DNA from: Actomonas aquatica
GTDB lineage: Bacteria > Verrucomicrobiota > Verrucomicrobiia > Opitutales > Opitutaceae
Length of the DNA stretch: 64,000 bases
Assembly (NCBI RefSeq): GCF_019679435.2
Contig: NZ_CP139781.1
Location: forward strand, 5,452,001 to 5,516,000
Reading direction: 5' to 3'
Shown one piece after another: positions 37,987 to 46,979 of this stretch. Position 1 is the first letter of the stretch. Every line of letters starts with the position of its first letter. The translations under genes were made by a program, and so were the position numbers. The notes below the pieces were generated by a model. It made no database searches. It was not told the origin of the DNA and saw nothing but the letters and a program-made list of their open reading frames with translations.

Positions 37987-38931
37987 ATGCTAACGACTCG
38001 CTTTGCGGCGCGAATGCGCGCAGGGCGAGACATGCTTTCTTCCTTTTTGCGTCGGCGTTTGCTTTGGCCCAAGGCCCTCGGTCTGTGGTGTGCCGCGGTG
38101 ACCGTGGCGGCAGCGGCGGGCAGTTACGTGGTGGTTTCCGCCACGGCCACTGACGGTTATGAACGCCAGGATGAGAGCGGCGCGCTGCGGCCGGAGAGTT
38201 ACATCATCTCCAAGGGCACGCACTTTGGCCACACGCGTGACGCGCAGGATGCGGACGAGCAGTTTAACCTCGTGTTGCAGGCCCTCGCGCCGGCGTTGGC
38301 CGAGCAGGAATATTGGCCGGCCAACGGCATCGAGAACGCCGATCTGCTGATCGTGGTGCACTGGGGCGAGACGGAGGTCTACGAAGACCCGGTGGGCGAT
38401 TACCTGGCCGAGTCCTACAACGATGCCTTGGCCGAATACATGGCCAACGCCGATGAAGCCGGCAATGCCGACCCGGGACGCCTCAACGAGCTGAAGCGTA
38501 TGGAGGGCATGAGCCAGCAGCTCGCGGCGCAGTCCCGGCGCGAGAACGCCGAGCTGTTGGGCTTTCAGCGCAGCTTGGAGAAGGAGGAGCAGCGTTATTT
38601 CGCCAGCGTGGACGAGCAGACGATGAAGGCGGAGTTGGCCGAGAACCGCTATTTTGTCGTGCTGATGGCGTGGGACTACGCGGCGCTGCGGCAGAAGCAG
38701 CCGGCGAAGCTCATGTGGGTGACGCGCATGAGTGTGCGGGCACCGGGCAATCGGTTTGTCGAAACCGTGCCGGCGCTCATGCGCCAAGGCGGGCCTTTGT
38801 TTGGACGCCAGAGCGACGACTTGGTGCGGCGACGCGAGTCGATCGATTCGCGCAATGCCGAGGTGGAGATCGGCGATACCGAAGTGGTGGAAGAAGCGGC
38901 CGACGAGACACGGTCCGCCCCGGCGCCCTGA
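37987..38931 (+). CDS. Exported protein of unknown family, tandem paralogue 1
   Basis: 314 residues. A basic start (RFAARMRAGRDMLSSFLRRR) and one hydrophobic helix (ALGLWCAAVTVAAAAGSYVV) suggest export or inner-membrane anchoring. The rest is soluble, with the segment DLLIVVHWGETEVYEDPVGD, then ENAELLGF, and RYFVVLMAWDYAALRQ. These segments recur almost unchanged in the next gene, so the pair arose by duplication. I recognise no catalytic motif. The acidic tail ends EVVEEAADETRSAPAP. Confidence 0.8.
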   Translation: MLTTRFAARMRAGRDMLSSFLRRRLLWPKALGLWCAAVTVAAAAGSYVVVSATATDGYERQDESGALRPESYIISKGTHFGHTRDAQDADEQFNLVLQALAPALAEQEYWPANGIENADLLIVVHWGETEVYEDPVGDYLAESYNDALAEYMANADEAGNADPGRLNELKRMEGMSQQLAAQSRRENAELLGFQRSLEKEEQRYFASVDEQTMKAELAENRYFVVLMAWDYAALRQKQPAKLMWVTRMSVRAPGNRFVETVPALMRQGGPLFGRQSDDLVRRRESIDSRNAEVEIGDTEVVEEAADETRSAPAP

Positions 38932-38996: not shown

Positions 38997-39872
38997 ATGA
39001 AAGCTTCCATGCGCGTCCTACCCCGTATCTTGGCGCTGGTGTCCCTGATCCTTTCTGGCCGGAGTGAACTGTGGGCCCGCAAAGATTATATCGTGGTCTC
39101 GTCCCGTGCTTCGGTCGGATACGAGCACACCCTGCCCGATGGGTCGCTGCGACCGGAGTCGTATGTGTTCATGGAGGGCGATCGGCTGGGAGCGACCAGA
39201 GACAAGTCACTCGCGCCGACGGAGTTTCAGGGCCTGCTCGAATCGCTCGCGCCCGCCCTCGCCAAACGGGAGTATTGGCCGGCGACCGTCGCCACGGAAG
39301 CCGACTTGCTGATCGTGGTGCACTGGGGGGAAACCGAAGTGTATGAGGACCCGGTGCGGGACATTGAGATGGAGGCGTTGAATGGCGCGTTGAACACTTT
39401 CAACACCACGATCTCCGACTTTGGCATCGCGGATCCGGGACGCATCAACGAGCTGATGGCTTCACAGGGGCTGTCCCAGCGATTTGTCGCCGATAGCGCC
39501 CGGCGCAATGCCGAGCTGCTGGGTTACAAGGAAGCCATCATGCGCGCGGAGCAGGAATTCATCCCCAGTGTGGATGAGATCACCATGAAGTCGGAGTTGG
39601 GCGAGCCGCGTTATTTTGTGGTGCTGTCCGCGTGGGACTACACCGCGATACGGCGGGGAGAGCGTCCGCGACTGTTGTGGGTTTCGCGCATGAATACGCG
39701 ATCGGCCGGACTCAATTTCCGACTCGCCCGCGAATTGTTGATCGCGCAGGCCGCGCCGAAGTTCGGTGAGCAAGTGGACGGTCTGGTGCGGGTGCGCGTG
39801 AAGACGGGCTTCGGTCACGGCGAGGTGGAGATCGGCGAAACCAAGGTGGTGGAAGAAGTGGCGCCGCAGTGA
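38997..39872 (+). CDS. Exported protein of unknown family, tandem paralogue 2
   Basis: 291 residues with a cleavable-looking signal (MRVLPRILALVSLILSGRSE). It is collinear with the previous gene's product after the leader: SLRPESYVFMEGD, the shared DLLIVVHWGETEVYEDPV, RRNAELLGYKEAI, RYFVVLSAWDYTAIR, and a shared end EVEIGETKVVEE. The two copies differ most in the leader, in the central linker and in the last residues. The invariant HWGETEVYEDP segment is the likely functional core. No known family comes to mind. Confidence 0.8.
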   Translation: MKASMRVLPRILALVSLILSGRSELWARKDYIVVSSRASVGYEHTLPDGSLRPESYVFMEGDRLGATRDKSLAPTEFQGLLESLAPALAKREYWPATVATEADLLIVVHWGETEVYEDPVRDIEMEALNGALNTFNTTISDFGIADPGRINELMASQGLSQRFVADSARRNAELLGYKEAIMRAEQEFIPSVDEITMKSELGEPRYFVVLSAWDYTAIRRGERPRLLWVSRMNTRSAGLNFRLARELLIAQAAPKFGEQVDGLVRVRVKTGFGHGEVEIGETKVVEEVAPQ

Positions 39873-42716: not shown

Positions 42717-43571
42717 TCAGGAGAGGGAGTCGCGCCAGGTTTTGCCGCGTTCGAGGCGGGCGCGGAGGTCGGTCCAGTCGCGGTTGGCGAGGGCGGCTTT
42801 GAAGTGATGCAACTCGTCTTCGCAGGCGGAGAGGGCGCGGAGGATCTCGTCGCGGTTCTGTTGGAGAATATCGATCCACATGGTGGCGTCGGAGGCGGCG
42901 ATGCGGGTCGTGTCGCGCAGGCCGTTGCCCGCGAGGTGGGACCAGTTGGCGGGCTTGGAGCCGAGCACGTTGCCGAGGCTGGTGGCGACGACTTGGGGGA
43001 GGTGGCTGATGTGGGCGACGATCTCGTCGTGTTGGTCGGGGGCGACGGTGACGACTTCGCTGCCGAGGTCGCGCCAGAAGCGCACGAGGGCGGTGAGCCG
43101 GGCCTCGTCGGGGGCGTCGTGCGGGGTGACAAAACAGGTGCGGCCGGCGAAGAGTTCCGGGTCGCCGTTTTGCCAGCCGGTAAGGGCGCCGCCAGCCATG
43201 GGATGGGAGCCGATGAAGGTGGCGCCGGTGGCGCTGGCGGCGAGGGTGGTGGTGCCGTGGCGGCAGATCTCGGCTTTGACGCTGCCGACATCGGTGAGGG
43301 TGGCGGAGGCGGCAAGGTGCGGCGCGATGCGTTCGACGAGCTCGGCGATGCGGGTGACGGGCGGGGCGAGGACGACGAGGTCGGCGTCGGCCACGGCGGC
43401 CTCGGGCGTATCGGCGACGGCGTCGCACCACGGTTGTTCGGCGAGGGCGAGACGCACTTCGGGGCGACGGGCCCAGATCACGATGCGCTGAGCGGCACCG
43501 CGGGCCCGCGCCGCTTGGGCGACGGAACCGCCGAGGAGGCCGGGAGCGAGAATGGCGAGCGTGTTGACCAC
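42717..43571 (-). CDS. tyrA: Prephenate dehydrogenase
   Basis: 284 residues. The NAD-binding start is LAILAPGLLGGSVAQAAR, where the first glycine of the usual GxGLxGGS loop is alanine. Later motifs are DADLVVLAPPVTRI, TDVGSVKAEIC, FIGSHPMAGG, and SHLPQVVATSLGNVLG with the catalytic-region HxPH-type pattern. It converts prephenate to 4-hydroxyphenylpyruvate for tyrosine. It is the first gene of the operon that continues with aroA, cmk and plsC. Confidence 0.92.
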   Translation of the reverse strand: MVNTLAILAPGLLGGSVAQAARARGAAQRIVIWARRPEVRLALAEQPWCDAVADTPEAAVADADLVVLAPPVTRIAELVERIAPHLAASATLTDVGSVKAEICRHGTTTLAASATGATFIGSHPMAGGALTGWQNGDPELFAGRTCFVTPHDAPDEARLTALVRFWRDLGSEVVTVAPDQHDEIVAHISHLPQVVATSLGNVLGSKPANWSHLAGNGLRDTTRIAASDATMWIDILQQNRDEILRALSACEDELHHFKAALANRDWTDLRARLERGKTWRDSLS

Positions 43572-43684: not shown

Positions 43685-45439
43685 ATGCCCTACGTGCAGC
43701 GAAAACGGATCCGCTACCGGGTGAAGGAGCGTCTTGGTCGACCCTTGGCGGTGCTGGCGGGCGGGCTGGTGCTGGCGGCGTTTTGGCTGTGGCTCAGCTC
43801 GCTGGGGCCACACATGCAGACGGATCAACCGAAGCCGTCGCGCTCGGAAAAGGCGATGATGGCGGCGCAGGAAAAATCGGTGGCGCAGGTGCTGGCGCGG
43901 GCGGCGGACTTGGCGGGGGATGGAGCGGTGCAAGCTTTGATGGAAGCCAAGGCGCTGCAGGAAGAAATTGTGGCGGGGCCGGCGACCACGCAGGCGGCGG
44001 TGCGACGACTGGCGGAGATTGAGAGGGAATTGGCCGAAGCCCAGGCGCAGGTCTGGGAAACCGCGGTGCTTCGAGCCGTGGCGGACGCGGAGGCGGCGGA
44101 GGAGGCGGGGCGCACGGCCGAGGCGGAGGAACGCTGGCAGGAAGCCCTGGCGGCGCAGGAGGAAATCAACCGGTCGGCGGCGAGTGCGGGGGCGAAGGAT
44201 TTCGGCCGGGCTTCGCGGCTGGCCAAACGATTGGCGGAGCTCAAGGCGGGGCCCCTCGCCGCCGAAGTGACGGCGGCGATCGCGGCGGCGCGGCAGGCGG
44301 TCGCGGCAGAGGATTGGGCGCTCGCCTTGGCGGGCTACACTGCGGCGCGGGCGGGGCAGGCGCGGCTGAATGAGGAGTATTCAACCACACGATACGCCGA
44401 CACTCTGCAGCTCGGTCGCATTGAGAAGGAAATAGCTTCGTTGGACGCGGCGGGAGTGGCGGCGGATGCGGAAGCGCTGGCGAGCGAGGGGGATGCCGCG
44501 ATGGAGGCGGGTGACTACGTGGCGGCGGCGGCGGCTTACGCGCAGGCTCGGGCGGTGCAGGTGCGGTTGAACGAAGAGTTTGGGCGAAGCCGTTTTGTGT
44601 CCGCCGAGCGGGTGGAGCAGTTGGAGGTGCGGCGGCAAACAGCGGCCTCGATTCCGCGGGTAGCGCAGCTGCACGCATGGGAAGCGCAGATCGCGGCGAA
44701 CCTGGCGCGGCGCGAAGTGGGCGCGGCCCGGGCGCTGATCGCCATGGCGGCGGTGGAGGTGGGACACCTGTTTGATGAGCTGTCGCGCAGTGAACGACTG
44801 GATCCGGAGTTGCGGTTGCGGCTCTCTTATTTGGAGGCGCAGCAGGAGCGATTGAGCGAAGTGCAGGATGCGGTGATGGAGCGGTTTCGGCCCTTGCCGG
44901 GGGTGGGGGAGTTGTGGTTGCTGCAGACGGAGGTGCCGCAGTCGCTCTACCTGCAGGTGATGCGCACCAATCCGAGCCGGCAGATGGGGCGCGAGTATGC
45001 GGTCGATTCGGTGAATTGGTTTGAGGCGCAGCAGTTTTGTCAGCGGCTCGGCTGGCTGCTTGGGCGGCGGGTGCGGCTGCCGACGGAGGATGAGTTTCGC
45101 ATCGCGGTGGGGGGCGGGACCCAGGCGGCGGCACTGGCGGCGGCGTTGGAGTTCTCGGCGGACGCGAAGGGGAGTCGACCGATGGCAGCAGGGGAGCCAA
45201 ACGCAGGTGGGTTTTTCGATCTGGTAGGCAATCTGGCCGAATGGATCGAGGCCCCGGAGGACGCGGGTGACGCGGAGCAGGGGGCGCTGATCGGCGGCAG
45301 TTACCTGGACCTGCCGGAGTCGTTGGCGCGATTGTCGAAAACGACGGTGCCCCGCTCGGAGCGAGCGAGGCACATCGGTTTCAGAGTGGTGGTGGAGATG
45401 ACGGAGCGCGAGGAGCGCGGCGCGCCGGATCTGCGCTGA
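43685..45439 (+). CDS. Membrane-anchored repeat protein with C-terminal FGE-sulfatase-like domain
   Basis: 584 residues from ATG 43685. A transmembrane helix (LAVLAGGLVLAAFWLWLSSL, 21-40) anchors a large domain with four copies of a roughly 54-65 residue helical unit, at about 68-119, 133-186, 200-253 and 262-315. Each has an A-rich helix, then LQEEI, AQEEIN or RLNEE, then a basic/aromatic turn and RxxxIE. Residues about 405-575 form a formylglycine-generating-enzyme-like fold: TEVPQSLYLQVMRTNPS, DSVNWFEAQQFCQRLGW, VRLPTEDEFRIAVGG, FDLVGNLAEWIE, IGGSY, HIGFRVVVE. FGE-like domains often act as binding modules without catalysis, and I do not see the catalytic cysteine pair. Function unknown. 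Confidence 0.85.
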   Translation: MPYVQRKRIRYRVKERLGRPLAVLAGGLVLAAFWLWLSSLGPHMQTDQPKPSRSEKAMMAAQEKSVAQVLARAADLAGDGAVQALMEAKALQEEIVAGPATTQAAVRRLAEIERELAEAQAQVWETAVLRAVADAEAAEEAGRTAEAEERWQEALAAQEEINRSAASAGAKDFGRASRLAKRLAELKAGPLAAEVTAAIAAARQAVAAEDWALALAGYTAARAGQARLNEEYSTTRYADTLQLGRIEKEIASLDAAGVAADAEALASEGDAAMEAGDYVAAAAAYAQARAVQVRLNEEFGRSRFVSAERVEQLEVRRQTAASIPRVAQLHAWEAQIAANLARREVGAARALIAMAAVEVGHLFDELSRSERLDPELRLRLSYLEAQQERLSEVQDAVMERFRPLPGVGELWLLQTEVPQSLYLQVMRTNPSRQMGREYAVDSVNWFEAQQFCQRLGWLLGRRVRLPTEDEFRIAVGGGTQAAALAAALEFSADAKGSRPMAAGEPNAGGFFDLVGNLAEWIEAPEDAGDAEQGALIGGSYLDLPESLARLSKTTVPRSERARHIGFRVVVEMTEREERGAPDLR

Positions 45440-45446
45440 GAGGTTT

Positions 45447-45860
45447 CTAGACGCCGCCGAGTTTCAGGATGCGGTCGAATTCGGTTTTGCGCAGGGGCAT
45501 GACTGAGAGGCGGCTCTGTTTGATGAGGGCGATCTCGGCGAGGCGGGAATCGTTTTTGATCTGCTCGAGGGTCACGGGTTGGGGCAGGGTGGTCTGCGCT
45601 TCCAATTCGACGGCCACCCAACGTTCGTCGTCGGTGGTGGGGTCGGGATAGGCTTCGCGGGAAACGGTGGCGATACCTTGGACTTCCTTGAGGCTCACGC
45701 TGGCGTAGAAGAGCACTTTGTCGCCGGCGCGCATGGTTTTGAGATTGTTGCGCGCTTGGTAGTTGCGCACGCCATCCCAGTCGGTGCGACGGTCCTTGAG
45801 AAGGTCCTGCCACGAATACTTTTCGGGTTCCTGTTTAACGAGCCAGTATTGGGTTGTCAT
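45447..45860 (-). CDS. EVE-domain protein
   Basis: 137 residues, an entire EVE (PUA-like) domain: YWLVKQEPEKYSWQDLLKDR, WDGVRNYQARNNLKTMRAGD, VLFYASVSLKEVQGIATVSR, and ERWVAVELEAQTTLPQPVTL. EVE domains bind modified bases or RNA; THYN1 is the eukaryotic relative. The aromatic cage residues (W, Y, F) of the fold are present. It is convergent with the FGE-like gene, 7 bp apart, and stands alone. It does not sit with the methylase at the left of the window. Confidence 0.9.
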   Translation of the reverse strand: MTTQYWLVKQEPEKYSWQDLLKDRRTDWDGVRNYQARNNLKTMRAGDKVLFYASVSLKEVQGIATVSREAYPDPTTDDERWVAVELEAQTTLPQPVTLEQIKNDSRLAEIALIKQSRLSVMPLRKTEFDRILKLGGV

Positions 45861-45971
45861 GAGAAAGTGGGGACAGTGTTCTGAACCGCCCAGTAGGCAC
45901 GGTTGGCCCGCTCAGGTCAAACTTGGGCGAGTGTTGGAGAATCCGCGCCAATTGGTTTCGCTCCTGACAAC

Positions 45972-46979
45972 ATGCATCGCACCCTACTGCCGATTCGGAT
46001 CGTGTTTATCTCGCTGTGTGCCGCAGCGGGATGGCTGGTGTGTTACTCGGTGCGGGAATGGGATGAGTATCGGATCATCGGCATCTTCATCGGTATGCTC
46101 ATCGGCGTGCTGGTGGTGTTGGTGGACCTGATGCTGAAGGGGTTTTCGCTGCGCGGTTTGTCGGCGTTGACCTTCGGTTTGGCGGTGGGATCGGTGATCT
46201 CATATCTGATCGGCACCTCACCGTTGTTTGTGCGGGGGGACGAACAGATCATCTACCTGTCGCGGCTGACGTTGTTTCTGGTCGTTACCTATGTGTGCAC
46301 GGTGATCGCGCTGCGCGGTAAGGATGAGTTCAACCTGGTGATCCCGTATGTGCGGTTTGTGCCGCATGAAGTGGATGTCCCGCTGATCGTGGTGGACACC
46401 AGTGCGCTGATCGATGGCCGCATTGGTCGCATCTGCGAAACCGGTTTTTTGGGCGGTGGTCTGGTGATCCCGCGCTTCGTGCTGGAGGAGCTGCAGCGGG
46501 TGGCCGACTCGAGTGATCCGGGACGGCAGGCTCGCGGACGCCGCGGCTTGGAGGTGTTGGGCGCGCTGCGTCGGATCAAACAGCTCGACCTACGCATTCA
46601 TGAGAGTGAGGCGCGCACCGAGGAGGTGGAGGCCAAGCTCGTGTTTTTGGCCCAGTCGATGAAAGCCAAGCTGCTCACGACTGACTACAACCTGGCCAAG
46701 ATGGCGGAGTTTCACGGGGTGCCGTGGCTGAACCTCAACGCGCTGGCGAAGTCCATCCGCCGGGAGCTGCTGGTCGGCGAGACCGTTGAAATCGATTTGG
46801 TGAAAGGCGGCCGGGAGGAGCACCAAGGCGTCGGTTACATCGAGGACGGCTCGATGGTGGTGGTGGAGGAAGCGCGATCCCTGGTGGGCACGCGAGTGCT
46901 GGCGCGGGTCACGAGTATTTTGCCCTCGGCAGGCGGGAAATTGATTTTCGCTCGGCTGACGGGTCCGAGCGAAGGTTGA
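45972..46979 (+). CDS. PIN-TRAM domain membrane protein (YacL-like)
   Basis: 335 residues from ATG 45972 (MHRTLLPIRIVFISLCAAAG). Four transmembrane helices fill residues 5-125. A PIN nuclease domain follows, with VVDTSALIDGRIG near 140, VIPRFVLEELQRVAD, and LLTTDYNLAKMAEFHGV carrying the late Asp. A TRAM RNA-binding domain ends the protein (EHQGVGYIEDGSMVVVEEAR, VTSILPSAGGKLIFARL). This is the YacL/PilT-N arrangement. Related proteins are thought to act on RNA at the membrane. Confidence 0.92.
   Translation: MHRTLLPIRIVFISLCAAAGWLVCYSVREWDEYRIIGIFIGMLIGVLVVLVDLMLKGFSLRGLSALTFGLAVGSVISYLIGTSPLFVRGDEQIIYLSRLTLFLVVTYVCTVIALRGKDEFNLVIPYVRFVPHEVDVPLIVVDTSALIDGRIGRICETGFLGGGLVIPRFVLEELQRVADSSDPGRQARGRRGLEVLGALRRIKQLDLRIHESEARTEEVEAKLVFLAQSMKAKLLTTDYNLAKMAEFHGVPWLNLNALAKSIRRELLVGETVEIDLVKGGREEHQGVGYIEDGSMVVVEEARSLVGTRVLARVTSILPSAGGKLIFARLTGPSEG

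Follow-up and report, generated by a model that had tools for sequence, protein, structure and literature searches.

A membrane-anchored protein of Opitutales with a 67-residue helical repeat and an FGE-like head lacking the catalytic cysteine pair

The window analysed here is a 64,000-nucleotide stretch of Actomonas aquatica (order Opitutales, family Opitutaceae; NZ_CP139781.1, positions 5,452,001-5,516,000 of the forward strand), and it contains a gene whose product, here called the stalk protein, is composed of a basic N-terminus, a single membrane helix, a long helical array and a head resembling the formylglycine-generating enzyme (FGE), in this order (Table 1). This agrees with a preliminary description of the same DNA, in which a hydrophobic helix was followed by a repeat array and, at the C-terminus, an FGE-like domain, all within 43685-45439. 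The only Pfam family matched by the protein is FGE-sulfatase (PF03781; residues 428-569, E=5.1e-13), all NCBIfam matches fall far under their cut-offs, the best being the OvoA N-terminal model (residues 410-524; 32.7 bits vs a cut-off of 400) and GldK (18.5 bits vs 350), and a search for paralogues in its own genome returned only the self-match at E up to 1. Scanning species genomes with a pattern gave 118 relatives, 80 of which were kept as loci; the family profile was built from 76 rows (75 of the 80 loci plus the window protein), and 53 aligned rows served for the counts of spacing, cysteines, charge and conservation reported below and as AlphaFold2 input. The hydrophobic stretch has a mean hydropathy of at least 1.6 in 50 of these 53 rows, the charge before it exceeds the charge after it in 43 (net +7 and +1, respectively, in the window protein), and a lipobox-like motif is present in none.

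When the window protein was aligned to itself without gaps, the best score (169) was found at an offset of 67 residues, whereas none of 1000 composition-preserving shuffles scored higher than 81, which places the repeat far above the background of an Ala/Glu-rich sequence. Self-comparison of the family profile likewise ranked offset 67 at the top (z=7.0) and offset 134 second, and the score at 67 was reached by none of 1000 column shuffles and none of 1000 shuffles of seven-column blocks. The spacing is exactly 67 residues between units 1 and 2 in 50, between units 2 and 3 in 52, and between units 3 and 4 in all 53 of the rows, and between units 0 and 1 in 45, with one row having 46. Because this period is near-universal and no whole unit was gained or lost among units 1-4 in the 53 rows, the length of the array looks constrained. 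On the same evidence, the unit length of 54-65 residues given in the preliminary description is corrected to 67, and the four copies it counted become an array of five register positions, including a weak unit 0. Units 1-3 are clear and match one another strongly; unit 4 is diverged and matches them weakly, at z 3.5 to 5.3, but at rank 1 in each case. Unit 0 gives no in-register signal with unit 4 (rank 24). The second and third of the four copies were correctly singled out as clear in RLNEEY/F, but the diverged ones are the first and the fourth rather than the first two.

The units have a signature of their own, as had been proposed, in both the loop motif and the pitch. Sixty-two unit sequences, selected for a length of 67, align over 67 columns, and the RLNEEY/F motif lies at the end of the short helix and in the loop that follows it. 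The signature of units 2 and 3 generalises to [LI]N-x2-[FY]-x2-[ST]-R-[FY], with the arginine present in 28 and 41 of the 53 rows, respectively, and the asparagine kept in 51, 52 and 51 rows in units 1, 2 and 3. Unit 1 has mainly this asparagine in common with the signature, and unit 4 lacks it and keeps a proline in 51 of the 53 rows.

AlphaFold2 modelled the protein with a predicted local distance difference test score (pLDDT) of 93.0 and a predicted template modelling score of 0.77, and residues 45-405 alone with a pLDDT of 95.3. In the modelled array, helices of approximately 35 and 21 residues alternate, with loops of 8-9 residues at the signature. The likeness of the units to tetratricopeptide repeat (TPR) hairpins that had been noticed from the letters holds in part of the unit: positions 6-30 of a one-unit profile align without gaps to consensus TPR designs, with a best E of 1.4e-8 that is a sum over 16 near-identical design repeats, none significant singly. 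Pentatricopeptide repeat designs score about equally (4.1e-8), the best natural TPR proteins reach 8.6e-4, and the remaining approximately 37 residues of each unit gave no convincing match. Pfam TPR_2 weakly matches 10 of the 62 units at E up to 1 (the first unit scanned scores 11.1 bits vs a cut-off of 27; the best TPR E among the 62 is 0.0012) and 15 of the 53 whole proteins (best E=0.00051). The closest fold match to the array is local, to SRP72 (7obr_u; root-mean-square deviation of 2.0 Å over 69 residues), at a Z of 10.5 that no match exceeds and that is below the level of about 13 advised as a caution for helical repeats. No convincing match to the whole array was found among PDB or viral models, and Foldseek returned none at E up to 0.001, with TM-scores of at most 0.22 among the 50 matches listed. 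TPR repeats have a period of 34 residues, as in the consensus designs, whereas the stalk has a pitch of 67 and alternates a long and a shorter helix. The reading we favour for the unit is that of a TPR-like hairpin with a pitch of 67 residues, and descent from TPR is plausible.

The FGE fold begins at approximately residue 391 of the model, and its closest matches are Treponema denticola variable protein 1 (2y3c, Z=21.1), CarF (20.3) and PvdO (19.7), followed by PorK (9mzu_A, 18.3) and bacterial FGE (2q17_E, 17.1), with SUMF2 (1y4j) also among them. The head thus shares its fold with FGE/SUMF1 and SUMF2 (Z 16-17) and scores above the PF03781 cut-off, but it aligns over profile positions 81-254 of 255 only, is fused to a membrane-anchored helical array, and has no catalytic cysteine pair in any of the 53 rows, in accord with the earlier impression that it is non-catalytic. 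The lone cysteine C452, kept in 52 rows, is unpaired, and position 542, the residue after GGS-x2, is aspartate in 48; by the GGS-x2-C motif, we take this position to be the first catalytic cysteine site of FGE. None of the four other FGE-domain proteins of this genome shows GGS-x2-C on reading, and hence they offer no catalytic positive control. The head is the most conserved region of the protein (mean pairwise identity of 0.47 vs 0.33 for the stalk) and includes the invariant residues P430, S431, R432, S442, R464, L465, P466, E470, E519 and W520. A lectin diversified by a diversity-generating retroelement was considered because the best fold match is the Treponema variable protein, which is a target of such an element; it was rejected, as the stalk head is conserved and each of the genome's three RVT_1 matches is separated from it by over 2 Mb, whether or not the contig is circular. 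PorK and GldK of the type IX secretion system also place an FGE-like fold without catalytic cysteines in an envelope protein, and in PMC12421860 this domain of PorK is described as lacking the two catalytic cysteines and serving as a docking hub. The stalk protein differs from them in its TPR-like stalk and in the absence of a lipoprotein signal of their kind from all 53 rows.

Table 1. Coordinates of the stalk gene, its protein segments and nearby or linked genes (window positions unless a locus is named)
Feature	Residues	Position	Strand	Remarks
Stalk gene, whole		43685..45439	+	584 aa; ATG at 43685 agrees with the starts of several relatives
Basic N-terminus, probably cytoplasmic	1-20	43685..43744	+	Charge bias
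Transmembrane helix core, signal-anchor type	21-37	43745..43795	+	Mean hydropathy 2.27; modelled helix 2-38
Repeat unit 0, weak	61-127	43865..44065	+	In-register rank 3, 1 and 1 of 41 vs units 1, 2 and 3
Repeat unit 1	128-194	44066..44266	+	Loop diverged: INRSAASAGAKDF
Repeat unit 2	195-261	44267..44467	+	Loop RLNEEYSTTRY
Repeat unit 3	262-328	44468..44668	+	Loop RLNEEFGRSRF
Repeat unit 4, diverged	329-395	44669..44869	+	Loop DELSRSERLD
FGE-like head	399-575	44879..45409	+	PF03781 E=5.1e-13; fold Z=21.1 to 2y3c over 180 residues
tyrA (prephenate dehydrogenase), divergent neighbour		42717..43571	-	Pfam PDH_N/PDH_C; context, outside the protein
EVE-domain gene, downstream		45447-45860	-	Pfam; kept in 31/80 loci
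PIN-domain gene, downstream		45903-46979	+	Pfam; kept in 34/80 loci
~605-residue protein, examples		L061:5284-7101; L040:4748-6628		Also at seven other loci

The titles of the relatives are mostly Opitutaceae, Opitutia, Opitutales, Puniceicoccaceae or Verrucomicrobia; three metagenome-assembled genomes are titled Akkermansia muciniphila and one only 'bacterium'. A homologue is also present in a cultured relative, Geminisphaera colitermitum TAV2 (L083). In a sample of the phylum, with at most five candidates scored per genome, 44 of 387 genomes had a stalk match at E up to 1e-5; these are 44 of the 63 genomes of the window's order, and none of the 324 elsewhere. The 19 negative genomes of the order had all candidates rescored, which gave head-region matches only, and the 5 kb upstream of tyrA, read in each of them, contained no stalk; one (L161) has another FGE-domain frame nearby. 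In a sample of the class, with at most ten candidates scored per genome, 27 of 188 genomes matched, all within the same order. For the window's family, the stalk was present in 18 and not found in 18 of the 36 genomes in the phylum sample, and a family sample gave a stalk-covering match in 64 of 150.

A tyrA match is divergent to the stalk gene in 67 of the 80 loci, followed outward by aroA (57), cmk (48) and plsC (46); a number of the loci end before these and the downstream genes. Elsewhere in the window, the tandem paralogues at 37987-38931 and 38997-39872 (+ strand) are 51% identical over 261 residues, have no Pfam match and were matched in only one of the 80 related loci (L038). Among other FGE-domain proteins, one in the same genome (L004, G000:C1:708681-709460) has a tail at its C-terminus that looks like a PEP-CTERM sorting signal, and a 1.6-Mb relative (G425) has ten PF03781 matches, several of them clustered on contigs C14 and C18.

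The features established by computation are the repeat in the sequence with its near-invariant spacing, a predicted fold, the lack of a cysteine pair and an occurrence across the order. From these we propose that the stalk protein is an envelope scaffold anchored in the inner membrane, with a docking head; in our judgement this has an even chance of being right. In this scheme the basic N-terminus would stay in the cytoplasm, the single helix would serve as the anchor, and the array, five units of alternating long and short helices, would be a periplasmic spacer with a fixed length. The head at its end may bind a protein or glycan partner, like the FGE-like fold of PorK; cell-wall synthesis, secretion and surface assembly are candidate processes. 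In favour of this proposal are the positive-inside charge bias without a lipobox-like motif, the confident model of a two-helix array, the stronger conservation of the head than of the stalk, and the precedent of PorK. Because the head lacks the catalytic cysteines, the protein probably acts as an envelope scaffold or docking post rather than as an FGE enzyme. A bolder version, in which the five-unit rod of 67-residue pitch is a periplasmic molecular ruler and the repurposed FGE head the docking hub of an undescribed, order-specific envelope machine, is speculative and more doubtful. Several observations weigh against a scaffold with a docking head. The charge bias around the hydrophobic stretch lacks the expected direction in 10 of the 53 rows, the stalk was not found in 19 of the 63 genomes of the order and is therefore dispensable in some, and no gene for a functional partner recurs consistently next to the stalk gene: the neighbours kept widely, which form the largest clusters, are tyrA, aroA, cmk, plsC, PIN and EVE, the smaller clusters having been left unannotated.

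The main rivals of a scaffold role are a cell-wall adaptor and another activity of the head. As an adaptor, the protein would be a periplasmic activator or partner of peptidoglycan enzymes in the manner of the TPR proteins LpoA, NlpI and LbcA, for which such roles are described, with the array as the binding surface. A TPR-like array in a membrane-anchored protein fits this idea, but none of the widely kept neighbours was recognised as a cell-wall gene and the head is more conserved than the array, so that we regard it as unlikely. Nor are LpoA, NlpI and LbcA known to have an FGE-like head. The second alternative, which also counts against a purely structural role, is that the stalk presents a head with some other activity, catalytic or ligand-binding, as is the case for EgtB/OvoA and further superfamily members. 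The many invariant head residues and the weak match to the N-terminal region of OvoA speak for such an activity; its 32.7 bits are nevertheless set against a cut-off of 400, PF03781 is matched in part only, and the conserved residues, judged from the alignments, look like fold core, which makes this quite unlikely.

A connection to sulfatases is suggested by the missing cysteine pair and the presence of SUMF2 among the fold matches, in that the stalk protein could be a dead FGE paralogue that, like mammalian SUMF2, binds FGE or sulfatases and regulates sulfatase activation. In 13 stalk-bearing genomes, hand-picked and mostly small, sulfatase matches were present in 12 and at least one other FGE-domain match, catalytic or not, in 11. 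Two genomes, G279 and G150 (98 and 99% complete), have 7 and 38 sulfatase matches, respectively, but the stalk protein is their only FGE-domain match, so no FGE is seen there to be regulated, and a third, G460 (97% complete), has the stalk and no sulfatase match. This makes a general role in the maturation of sulfatases unlikely, although some lineages may differ, and regulation of sulfatase activation by the stalk protein is largely rejected and rated as highly improbable; the sulfatases of G279 and G150 may be matured in another way or need no FGE. Scarcely more probable is that the stalk works with an exported-looking protein of approximately 605 residues, whose gene lies on the same strand 25-117 bp downstream in 9 of the 80 loci. 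This protein contains GGICVDQ...RHAW and looks transglutaminase-like by eye, with no Pfam match for the two members tested. Within the window's family a homologue is present in 11 of the 18 stalk-bearing genomes and in 5 of the 18 that lack the stalk, but across the order the counts are 15 of 44 and 5 of 19, respectively, and in the window's own genome the homologue is unlinked to the stalk gene.

A literature search, mostly outside subscription journals, found no publication on this family. Each of its parts is a variant of a known fold; neither the 67-residue pitch nor the near-invariant array nor the fusion turned up in the literature or fold searches. If the reading as an envelope scaffold with a docking head is true, a TPR-like hairpin has been extended to a pitch of 67 residues, kept at near-invariant spacing and combined with a further non-catalytic use of the FGE fold. 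An order of the Verrucomicrobiota would then possess a single-copy, often syntenic envelope protein that some genera lack, which makes its role open to comparative testing.
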